DNA of 64,000 bases from Mariprofundus sp. (GTDB lineage: Bacteria; Pseudomonadota; Zetaproteobacteria; Mariprofundales; Mariprofundaceae), in the NCBI GenBank assembly GCA_021772775.1, contig JAJFLH010000020.1:62001-126000 (forward strand). The letters run 5' to 3'. Positions 5,338 to 44,280 of the stretch are shown piece after piece; within the stretch, counting starts at the first letter, position 1, and each line of letters opens with the position of its first letter. The translations under genes and the position numbers were made by a program. Under the pieces are notes generated by a model. The model worked only from the letters and a program-made list of their open reading frames with translations, was not told where the DNA came from and did not search any database.

Positions 5338-5424
5338 TCGTTAAGGCTATGCTGTTAGTGCAAGGCTAAGAAGCTAAAGATCAGCGTCATTCCGGCATGT
5401 TTTTAGCCGGAATCCATGGTGATT
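5338..5424 (+). repeat. Dispersed intergenic repeat, copy 2
   Basis: Best-preserved copy. Left box GTTAAGGCTATGCTGTTAG then TGCAAGG; right box CAGCGTCATTCCGGCATG then TTTTTAGCCGGAATCCATGG. ATTCCGGC and GCCGGAAT can pair into an 8-bp stem with a 9-base loop. It fills the space between the convergent cupin and YgiQ genes and touches the YgiQ stop codon, so it may serve as a bidirectional transcription end. Confidence 0.82.
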
Positions 5425-38888: not shown

Positions 38889-39253
38889 CAATCTCTCCTT
38901 TGAGCGCAATAACTCCCAACATGTTCATTTCAGAATACAAAATTGAACATTCTATTTTTTCATGCCTAGACCATTTTGTCCATGGCCAACAAATATCAGG
39001 CTGGATTATTTTATCAGAAATGTTCGTAGATTACTGATATTTGAATTTAGTATCTGTTTTGCCGGGGTAAACACGGGATTAATGATTGCAATAGCTTGAT
39101 CTGTACCGCAATCTAACAGCATCCGAAGAGTAGGACTCTCATAGGCCTGACAGAGTTCTAGCGCTAGAGATAAAAGCTTGTTAAATCGGCAAGTATTGCG
39201 GTGATGGCATCAGTTGTGCTTCGATCAGCATGAAAGAGTGAAGGGGGCTAAAA
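38889..39253. other. Intergenic region with inverted repeat upstream of the ATPase gene
   Basis: 365 bp between divergent genes. ATGTTCA (38921-38927) and TGAACAT (38944-38950) are perfect inverted copies 16 bp apart, about 33 bp ahead of the ATPase start, a plausible operator. At 39001 the run CTGGATTATT matches the left end of the 106-bp insertion at 40014, perhaps a relic. No gene seen. Confidence 0.4.
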
Positions 39254-39811
39254 ATGAAATTATTAGCTATATCGGGAAGTATTCGAGCCGGTTCATATAA
39301 TAGGGCTCTACTTAAAGCGATGTCTGAATTGAGCTCGAGTGGGACAACTGTCACGGTGTATGATGGCTTAAAGGATATTCCAATATATGATCCGAATGTT
39401 GCTGATAATGCGATACCTGTAGCTGTGGCAGATTTGATGTTAAAAATCAGAGCATCTGACGGCGTGATTATTAGTACGGCTGAATATATTTATGGCGTGC
39501 CTGGAATTCTGAAAAATGTACTGGATTGGCTAGTGTCGTCGGATGTGTTGATATTGAAACCTGTTTCGGTCAGCAGTATATCTACTAGCTCCCTGGGTGG
39601 TGTGAGGGCACACAGTGCATTGATACTTATTCTCCATACCATGAATGCTTCTGTAGTGGTTGATGGTTCAATCCATGTTCCCAGCGTGTATGAAAAGTTC
39701 GATGAAAACCGTAAATTAACAGATGAGTTAACTAAACAGGCGATCAAGGTCTCACTATCGGCCATTGAGCAGGCTGTAGATATCGCGGAAAACCAGCAAG
39801 CCAGTGCTTGA
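39254..39811 (+). CDS. NADPH-dependent FMN reductase family protein
   Basis: A 185-residue flavodoxin-like quinone/azo/chromate-reductase type protein. FMN-phosphate loop AISGSIRAGSYNRALL (residues 4-19) and the second flavin loop STAEYIYGVPGILKNVLDWL fit the family (ChrR, YieF, ArsH relatives). It would reduce flavins or quinones with NAD(P)H in the cytoplasm. A strong GAAGGGGG ribosome site is present. Repeat copy 3 lies downstream. Confidence 0.88.
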   Translation: MKLLAISGSIRAGSYNRALLKAMSELSSSGTTVTVYDGLKDIPIYDPNVADNAIPVAVADLMLKIRASDGVIISTAEYIYGVPGILKNVLDWLVSSDVLILKPVSVSSISTSSLGGVRAHSALILILHTMNASVVVDGSIHVPSVYEKFDENRKLTDELTKQAIKVSLSAIEQAVDIAENQQASA

Positions 39812-39992
39812 AGTACCGTTTAATCTTCATTGTTGTTTCACGCAAGTGTAGTTGGTTGGGGTGATATCAGATGGAGGCAAATGCTTTAATTCTTATTGGC
39901 GATGATAATCCGGTGATTGGAGAATGCTTCAGGGGCTAATTGATTCTCTATATACGCGTCGATCGAAAGTTTATTATTACTCACAGATTGTT

Positions 39993-40190
39993 AGTTAAAA
40001 CTATGTTGTTAGTCTGGATTATTCATGAATCAGCGTAATGATCGCGCAGGGCTTTTGTGTGCAACGAATTATTGCGAGCAAAGGAATAAGCGAGGATGCG
40101 CAGTATTTATATAATCCGGGTTAGTGCAAGGCTTGAGCAGTTACACATCAGCGTCATTCCGGCATGGTTTTAGCCGGAACCCACATGCCG
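39993..40190 (+). repeat. Dispersed intergenic repeat, copy 3 (split by an insertion)
   Basis: Left box GTTAAAACTATGTTGTTAGT (39993-40013 region) and right box GCAAGG...CAGCGTCATTCCGGCATG (from 40126) belong to the same repeat but are separated by 106 bp plus a duplicated hexamer. The right part keeps the CCGGC/GCCGG hairpin but ends in ACCCACATGCC instead of AATCCATGG. Confidence 0.78.
40014..40119. mobile_element. 106-bp MITE-like insertion inside repeat copy 3
   Basis: The insert begins CTGGATTATTCATG and ends ATATAATCCGG, imperfect terminal inverted repeats, and is flanked by the 6-bp direct repeat GTTAGT (40008-40013 and 40120-40125). Removing the insert and one hexamer restores the repeat as seen at 1740 and 5338. 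It encodes nothing, so a transposase acting in trans is implied. The ends remind me of IS1380-type termini, from memory only. Confidence 0.7.
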
Positions 40191-40355
40191 AAAAAAGTTG
40201 GACCCCTGACAAATTCTCTCAGAAATGACGTACGTATCGAATGTTTTTATTATACATATATAACGATTGTAATGTCTTAATACGGCTAGACAGAAGATAG
40301 ATAGCCACAGCTGGTTGAACCACACCTTATAAATAATTGAAAAAAGATGCGTTTT

Positions 40356-40373
40356 ATCATCAATGTTGATGAT
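40356..40373. promoter_or_regulatory. Perfect palindrome upstream of the DUF2235 gene
   Basis: ATCATCAA-TG-TTGATGAT, eight-base arms with a two-base centre, 152 bp before the DUF2235 start. It could bind a dimeric regulator or form a cruciform. The binding protein is unknown. Confidence 0.35.
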
Positions 40374-40525
40374 GAAATACTTTTTGTTTGTTCTATTATT
40401 TCGGGTTCTGGTGAGATGAGTGCGCAGAAAGCTTCAGCTGTCTGCTATACTGGAATGAGGAAAACGGGGGAGCTGCTAAAATAAGCTCATGATCCAGATG
40501 TATTGATTACGAGGGAGGGTAGTTT

Positions 40526-42120: not shown

Positions 42121-42196
42121 ATTATAGAACATGCATTGGCCTCTATCTGGCAACGGCTATAGCAGATACCACTTTTTTTATTATCTCCGGTAGCTG

Positions 42197-42289
42197 GTTA
42201 GAGCTATGTTATTCTGCAAGGTAATCGCAGCCACGCATCAGCGTCATTAAGGTATGCCTTTAGCCGGAATCCATGGGGCGGTAAAAGCT
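42197..42289 (+). repeat. Dispersed intergenic repeat, copy 4 (diverged)
   Basis: Left box GTTAGAGCTATGTTATTC then TGCAAGG; right box CAGCGTCATTAAGGTATG then CCTTTAGCCGGAATCCATGG. The left arm of the hairpin is mutated (AAGGT for CCGGC), so the stem is lost. The tail GCGGTAAAAGC matches the TTGTAAAAGC that follows copy 1. Confidence 0.75.
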
Positions 42290-43704: not shown

Positions 43705-43953
43705 GGACTTTGTGTGCAAGCTCTTGAATGTTGAGCTTATGGAGATCGATGTTGTCAGACTCGATTGATTATTGCGGGGCAGGGAGAAGGTCATAACGGG
43801 CCAGCGTGAAGGTCTGGATGCCTCTGTTCAAGAAAATATCTGATCATATTATCTTTGCAGGAAAAGTTTTACTGGCCTGATACTCCTAGTTAGCTACACT
43901 GTGTTCCGCAAAACATTGCTTGTAGTATTTTTTAGACAGACTTGGAACTTTCC

Positions 43954-43981
43954 TTGATTGATCTTAATTTTCACTTATAAA
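43954..43981 (+). promoter_or_regulatory. Sigma70-like promoter of the cold-shock gene
   Basis: TTGATT (43954-43959), 16-bp spacer, TATAAA (43976-43981). The resulting leader would be only about 37 nt and AT-rich (includes AATTAATTAATTAAGG), too short for the long thermosensor leader of classical cspA. Confidence 0.55.
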
Positions 43982-44024
43982 TGCAAGTTTATGCAAAAAA
44001 ATTAATTAATTAAGGATTTATAAA

Positions 44025-44228
44025 ATGGCTACAGGTACTGTTAAATGGTTCAACGACACTAAAGGTTTTGGTTTTATCGCTCAGGATGATGGCGGAGATG
44101 ATGTTTTCGTACACTTTTCCTCAATTCAAGGTGATGGCTTTAAATCTCTGACTGAAGGTCAGGCAGTTGAATATGATGTTGAAGATGGAGCGAAAGGCCC
44201 ACAGGCTTCTAACGTTTACCCTAAATAA
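44025..44228 (+). CDS. CspA-family cold-shock / RNA chaperone protein
   Basis: A 67-residue single cold-shock domain. RNP1 KGFGFIAQ and RNP2 VFVHFSS motifs are intact, and [18 protein letters not shown] is the classic start. It binds single-stranded RNA or DNA and relieves secondary structure. AAGG ribosome site, sigma70-like promoter and terminator make it a complete monocistronic unit. Whether it is cold-induced cannot be told; the short leader argues for a constitutive or growth-phase paralogue. Confidence 0.95.
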
Positions 44229-44247
44229 GGTAACTAAGTCTCTTTTA

Positions 44248-44280
44248 AACACCTCGCCTAACAGCGGGGTGTTTTTTTTT
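44248..44280 (+). terminator. Intrinsic terminator after the cold-shock gene
   Basis: AACACCTCGC (44248-44257) pairs with GCGGGGTGTT (44264-44273), one T-G wobble, followed by a run of T. The following 250 bp to 44528 hold nothing recognisable. Confidence 0.9.

Follow-up and report, generated by a model that had tools for sequence, protein, structure and literature searches.

A 108-bp piece of DNA that splits a copy of a dispersed repeat in Mariprofundus sp. (positions 40013-40120, plus strand, of the 64,000-nucleotide stretch analysed here, called the window) is, in all likelihood, a miniature inverted-repeat transposable element (MITE) with ends recognised by a transposase of the IS1380 family (DDE_Tnp_1_4). 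The piece is an insertion, it is a non-autonomous and apically deleted copy of a family of roughly 160 bp present across the genus, and the genus also contains IS1380 elements whose ends and duplications match. Judged by its ends and its type of target, the transposase that moved it was very probably of the IS1380 family. The piece has the features by which a MITE is recognised: it is short and free of a transposase gene, carries terminal inverted repeats, retains a TTAG duplication at an intact site and has multiple dispersed relatives.

The split repeat copy reads ...TATGTTGTTAGT up to the left junction, CTGGATTATTCATGAAT...TATATAATCCGG between the junctions and GTTAGTGCAAGG... beyond the right one. 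The inserted piece starts with CTGGATTATT and ends with ATAATCCGG, with the letters GTTAGT on either side. The left part of the host repeat occupies 39975-40012 and the right part 40125-40183, the latter with CAGCGTCATTCCGGCATG...TTTTAGCCGGAA (both on the plus strand), as delimited by BLAST with the joined flanks and by the other genome copies, and for the right part also by alignment. When the flanks are joined, they align across the junction with three unbroken copies in the window, at 1723-1818 (79%), 5340-5416 (86%) and 42174-42273 (74%). In the genome as a whole, which comprises 3.12 Mb in 40 contigs, nine of the 17 listed matches cross the junction uninterrupted, the three window copies included; two of the others are the halves of the interrupted copy and six stop short of the junction. 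These unbroken copies establish that the insertion is real. An orthologous empty site was not found in the 23 genomes of the genus, which gave scattered repeat matches and longer counterparts only for the part with the upstream ORF (G009, G006, G011), so that the empty state is read from the remaining copies of the repeat within this one genome. The host repeat family carries CAGCGTCATTCCGGCATG...TTTTAGCCGGAATCCA and, with the interrupted copy (39975-40183) included, is present ten times or more in the genome. A second dispersed repeat, with a palindromic core, lies at window positions 40331-40386 (the AATTGAAAAAAGATGCGTTTTATCATCAATGTTGATGATGAAATACTTTTTG region) and has several more copies in the genome and in G009, and the window also holds a cspA thermoregulator RNA (RF01766) at 43897-44277 (113.3 bits).

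The exact boundaries come from a covariance model (R1) built on an alignment (A2) of 12 relatives of 159-161 bp out of 17 copies; L079, the window copy itself and three copies of 200-244 bp were left out of A2. Against the window, R1 matches 40013-40120 end to end (model positions 1-160) with 72.5 bits and an E-value of 2.9e-15 for 64 kb, and this is its sole window match at E ≤ 1. The left terminal inverted repeat is TCTGGATTAT (40013-40022, plus strand; family consensus CCCGGAYTAT) and the right one, reading inward, is CCCGGATTAT (40111-40120, minus strand), both placed from the window sequence and the A2 consensus. Between them, the R1 alignment leaves 5 nt of hairpin apex (40066-40070, plus strand) against 54 model positions, which makes the window copy about 50 nt short. 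A larger element was also considered, from CTGGATTATT near 39002 to ATAATCCGG near 39905 around the ORF at 39254-39811, since 9-10-mers there resemble the ends; it was rejected, as no matching 4-bp flanks are seen by eye and R1 sees one element in the window.

The length of the target duplication was read from many copies at once. The flank statistics cover 60 of the 67 distinct R1 matches in the genus, one of the 60 (L276) being a partial match; two matches that touch contig starts (G009 C323 and C125) were left out, as were G019 C36:108674, G022 C367, G011 C16, G017 C260 and G006 C40. At the R1 boundaries of these 60 copies, 147 of 240 letters of the flanking 4-mers agree (61%), against a mean of 114.7 and a maximum of 137 in 10,000 shuffles. 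Identical flanking 4-mers occur in 12 of the 60, among them the window copy (shuffled mean 4.3; 12 reached in 2 of 10,000 shuffles). At length 5 the agreement drops to 31% of letters, and at length 6 to 24%. A 4-bp duplication is thus the rule of this MITE family, and the flanking 4-mers are mostly YTAR. Given this strong agreement at length 4 and its loss at lengths 5 and 6, the duplication in the window is most likely the 4-bp TTAG present on both sides of the piece (40009-40012 and 40121-40124, plus strand), a placement that also agrees with the empty sites; judged from that site alone, it could still be one of 5 or 6 bp. The two further matches that extend TTAG to the hexamer look like chance. 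The additional G belongs to the element as its right-terminal base and equals the base before the target; likewise, the additional T is the left-terminal base of the element (C in the family consensus) and equals the base after the target.

Much of what an earlier note had read from these letters holds. Its nested insertion is borne out by the empty repeat copies, although the 106 bp it placed at 40014-40119 become 108 bp at 40013-40120 with R1. The uninterrupted copies that it took for the state before insertion do cross the junction unbroken, in nine genome matches, and its imperfect terminal inverted repeats are seen both in the window and in the family consensus and hairpin. The GTTAGT that it described as a target duplication is indeed present on both sides, but the flanks of the 60 copies reduce the duplication to TTAG. 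Relatives of the piece do occur elsewhere without the hexamer, which the note had set against its own reading; this counts against the hexamer and not against the insertion.

The family to which the piece belongs is spread through the genus. Its consensus in A2 starts with CCCGGATTATTCATGAATCG and ends with CAGTATTCATGAATAATCCGGG. R1 finds it in 18 of the 23 genus genomes (128 first-look candidates were scored per genome), whereas plain BLAST matched 11 of 41 genomes, all within the genus and none among the 18 outside it. Copies are near-constant in length, with 35 of the 60 at 158-161 bp, 48 at 154-202 bp and 12 shorter or longer, bearing in mind that the lengths of weak R1 matches may be shaped by the model's end-to-end fit. 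Four relatives (L012, L023, L032, which is the same as L275, and L273) contain an additional stretch, about 40 bp or longer, close to the apex of the hairpin; it resembles GACAAGGTGAATGCGCTTGCGCAGAGAGGGTGCCCTGGGGCATGA and is possibly another nested palindromic repeat.

Which transposase moved such elements can be approached through the genus itself. IS1380 transposases scoring above the cut-off are encoded in three of the 23 genomes (G010, G013 and G022). Two of them belong to complete elements, L035 in G010 (1714 bp, flanks TTAG/TTAG) and L036 in G013 (1717 bp, flanks CTAG/CTAG); both have ends CCTGAAYWATTCAYAA, and their proteins match DDE_Tnp_1_4 with 503 and 499 bits, respectively. G022 has two genes above the cut-off (L037 and L046) and lacks ends of the CCYGVAT type, L046 having inverted CCCAAATCTCG instead. 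A search of the phylum gave a match in 65 of 299 genomes, 21 of them above the cut-off. At seven of the 17 IS1380 loci examined in the genus and phylum, inverted ends of the CCYGVAT type are flanked by identical 4-mers: L035 (TTAG), L036 (CTAG), L325 (CTAT), L326 (CTAA), L327 (CTAG), L329 (CTAG) and L331 (CTAA). The ends of L331, CCCGGATATTTCATGA, share 14 of 16 letters with the MITE consensus. The other ten loci lack identical 4-mers: L323 and L324 agree in three of four letters, L046, L332 and L333 have inverted ends with 4-mers that do not match, and L321, L322, L328, L330 and L037 gave no clear ends (the ends of L327 and the flanks of L323 and L324 were read by hand). Outside the phylum, the end CCTGGATTATTCATGAAT is found at the cyanobacterial locus L096, next to an ORF that shares 36% identity with the L035 transposase (tblastn, 2.8e-80); the left flank there is CTAG and the right one TTAG. 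The MITE is therefore like the IS1380 family (Pfam DDE_Tnp_1_4, NCBIfam NF033539) in its CCYGRAYTATTCAT-type ends and its 4-bp YTAR-type duplications, a likeness seen on complete elements from the same genus and phylum. It differs in having no transposase gene and in its size, 108 bp (about 160 bp in its relatives) against about 1.7 kb.

These loci bear directly on what the earlier note had proposed about the mover. It had described a small non-autonomous insertion dependent on a transposase in trans, a core reading that is upheld, with mobilisation itself deduced. The comparison with IS1380 termini that it had suggested gave the two complete genus elements with CCTGAAYWATTCAYAA ends and perfect TTAG and CTAG duplications. 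The search for further copies in the same genome gave five R1 matches, the window copy included. As to a full insertion sequence with like ends, two exist in the genus, but the piece's own genome (G000) has no IS1380 transposase above the cut-off, only two weak matches below it. Its lack makes it less likely that the family is active there now and does not lower the case for past mobilisation by IS1380. The exact cognate IS1380 element of the window piece was not found in the genus and phylum searches, and since the two complete elements of the genus, L035 and L036, end CCTGAA... and not exactly CCCGGA..., the cognate partner may be another member of that family. Movement would start with a complete IS1380 element supplying the transposase, which would recognise the MITE by its terminal repeats. 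The MITE would then be excised at these repeats by cut-and-paste and inserted at a staggered YTAR target (TTAG in the case of this host repeat), where gap filling would create the 4-bp duplication. The window copy would have stayed in place and decayed, with base changes in its left end and an apex that may have gone before or after the insertion, and presumably no longer moves.

Alternatively, a transposase of the IS5 group could have moved the element, its resemblance to IS1380 ends being convergent. The IS5 group also makes 4-bp YTAR duplications, so that the duplication alone cannot separate the two, and the genome's own want of an IS1380 gene above the cut-off fits this alternative as well. 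Ends of the IS5 group, however, are not known to begin with CCCGGATTATTC, whereas the IS1380 loci examined include elements that bear ends of the MITE type with exact duplications at those very ends, which leaves the IS5 group only a slim chance and IS1380 the preferred mover.

The aligned family is predicted to fold into one long hairpin with 56 base pairs (-66.6 kcal/mol), the arms of which tend to change together. In A2, 94.8% of the paired cells form pairs, against 89.6% with shuffled partners. Both sides have changed at 17 pairs (shuffled mean 9.5; none of 500 shuffles reaches 17), and the signal is gone once the partners are slid by 1-3 columns. For additional pair types the count is unexceptional, with 46 against 43.6 when shuffled (reached by 86 of 500 shuffles). 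The family sequences are related, and none of these counts is to be taken as a probability. The fold of the window copy's own DNA is unremarkable (z -0.72). Why would the hairpin be conserved? It is conceivable, though rather unlikely, that the hairpin of 160 nt is maintained in its own right and that it also collapses, through deletion between the two copies of the self-palindrome ATTCATGAAT, into 26-bp "solo-end" palindromes that retain the target duplication. Behind this idea stand the near-constant length, the conserved interior, the covarying arms and the occurrence of one MITE across Zeta- and Gammaproteobacteria. If true, it would fit a selected role for the folded DNA or RNA, which might serve as a substrate for transposition, end transcripts or stabilise mRNA, and the palindromes would be comparable to the solo LTRs that LTR elements leave behind.

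Such palindromes, two ends head to head with nothing between them (CCCGGAYTATTCATGAATARTCCGGG), occur at several places. Of 16 places fetched, L351 was dropped as not being such a palindrome, and at seven of the remaining 15 the two 4-bp flanks are identical (1.8 on average in shuffles; seven reached in 3 of 10,000). At four of these seven (L349, L357, L359 and L360) the flank is CTAG or TTAA, which is self-complementary, so that a direct duplication there is indistinguishable from a longer palindrome; clearly direct identical flanks are present in three (L350, L352 and L355). Two of the four palindrome places in the window's own genome (L347 and L348) have inverted flanks, like plain terminator-like palindromes. 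These self-complementary and inverted flanks lower the odds that the hairpin is kept and collapses in this way. The 26-bp palindromes may be products of deletion between two ATTCATGAAT copies after insertion; a transposable unit of 26 bp would seem a less likely origin. A 26-bp two-end palindrome with identical 4-bp YTAR flanks is also seen in a Nitrospiraceae locus (L201).

As a further alternative, the piece could be a palindromic insert that is translated, or a mobile mini-gene. Rickettsia palindromic elements are translated palindromic inserts of this kind, and the 160-bp relatives do contain a frame of about 45 codons, beginning with the ATG of CATGAAT and stopping close to the right end, that is free of inner stops in eight of 12 aligned copies and encodes similar peptides. 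On the other hand, four of the 12 copies have an inner stop and two lack the ATG, the middle of the frame is missing from the window copy, and the hairpin accounts for the conservation. Third codon positions are not more variable than the others (entropy 0.572 against a permuted mean of 0.558, p = 0.40), and for want of a coding signature the frame was rejected as a gene, which makes this alternative very improbable. Virtually no credence can be given to the view that nothing transposed and that the 108 bp are ancestral in the interrupted copy and were precisely lost from the others, which has nothing beyond logical possibility in its favour, would require the same exact loss in nine other host copies and is opposed by the relatives of the piece elsewhere in the genome and genus.

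The ends of the MITE are also widespread beyond the genus. The end pattern TARYCYGGAYTATTCATGAAT matched at least 120 stretches of public genomes, and the matches listed include, by record title, Nitrospira, Sedimenticola, Planctomycetota, Desulfobacterota, Zetaproteobacteria and others. In these stretches the pattern occurs 136 times, counted on both strands so that one element may count twice. Among the matches listed, a partner end giving 140-190 bp is present at 58 of the 136 occurrences; other spacings are about 26 bp (17), 28-139 bp (12) and 191-417 bp (8), and 41 have no partner, 21 of them because the sequence stretch ends. The interiors between like ends differ from group to group. 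R1, run over 80 of the at least 120 loci, reached 130.6 bits in Dokdonella immobilis and 109 bits in a gammaproteobacterial MAG, and one Sedimenticola MAG has five places with scores of 87-94 bits. All of these exceed the 72.5 bits of the window copy. Going by sequence, the same element is found in Gammaproteobacteria and the same ends in other phyla. In a tblastn search with four genus IS1380 transposases at 1e-5, only L096 matched among the at least 120 listed loci. One Nitrospira locus with ends 1.35 kb apart (L152) was considered as an autonomous element and rejected, its inner ORF looking by eye like the IS110 type. This IS110-type-looking transposase ORF (L152, 933-2168) lies inside a Nitrospira MITE with the same ends.

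In the available parts of the literature, the closest parallels are TIMEs, which are tied to Tn3, and MITEPye1, which is tied to IS1182 (PMC4133298, PMC11578231). As far as those parts go, both share with the present MITE a small size, the lack of genes, target duplications and a long stem-loop, and likewise share terminal repeats with an IS or transposon family. Unlike them, the Mariprofundus family has IS1380-type ends and spans the genus plus another class. The available part of PMC10140906 uses IS1380 transposases as distant prokaryotic relatives of eukaryotic piggyBac, gives CCC/GGG as the usual first bases and 4-bp TTAA as the piggyBac target, and has bee elements beginning with CAC. By that account the 4-bp target is alike in both, while the MITE is bacterial and non-autonomous and its target is YTAR, not TTAA alone. 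The parts of PMC9330008, PMC4133298 and PMC11578231 that were available describe no IS1380 MITE. Neither end sequence was present in the literature searched, which excluded most subscription journals and ISfinder, and the same searches gave no published record for Mariprofundus with MITE or for Zetaproteobacteria with miniature inverted-repeat. The window copy seems ordinary in kind and its family little described, with a prior description possible.

In this way a dispersed hairpin repeat that had no name, found in Mariprofundus and other bacteria, is linked to one definite family of transposases, and its exact ends and target type are given. Because ends and target are tied to IS1380, such repeats can be annotated and need no longer be taken for small genes or REP elements. 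The covariation of the arms and the 26-bp palindromes together provide testable material on how palindromic MITEs are maintained and lost. The wider family is worth naming, and the window copy is one decayed, nested and well-bounded member of it.
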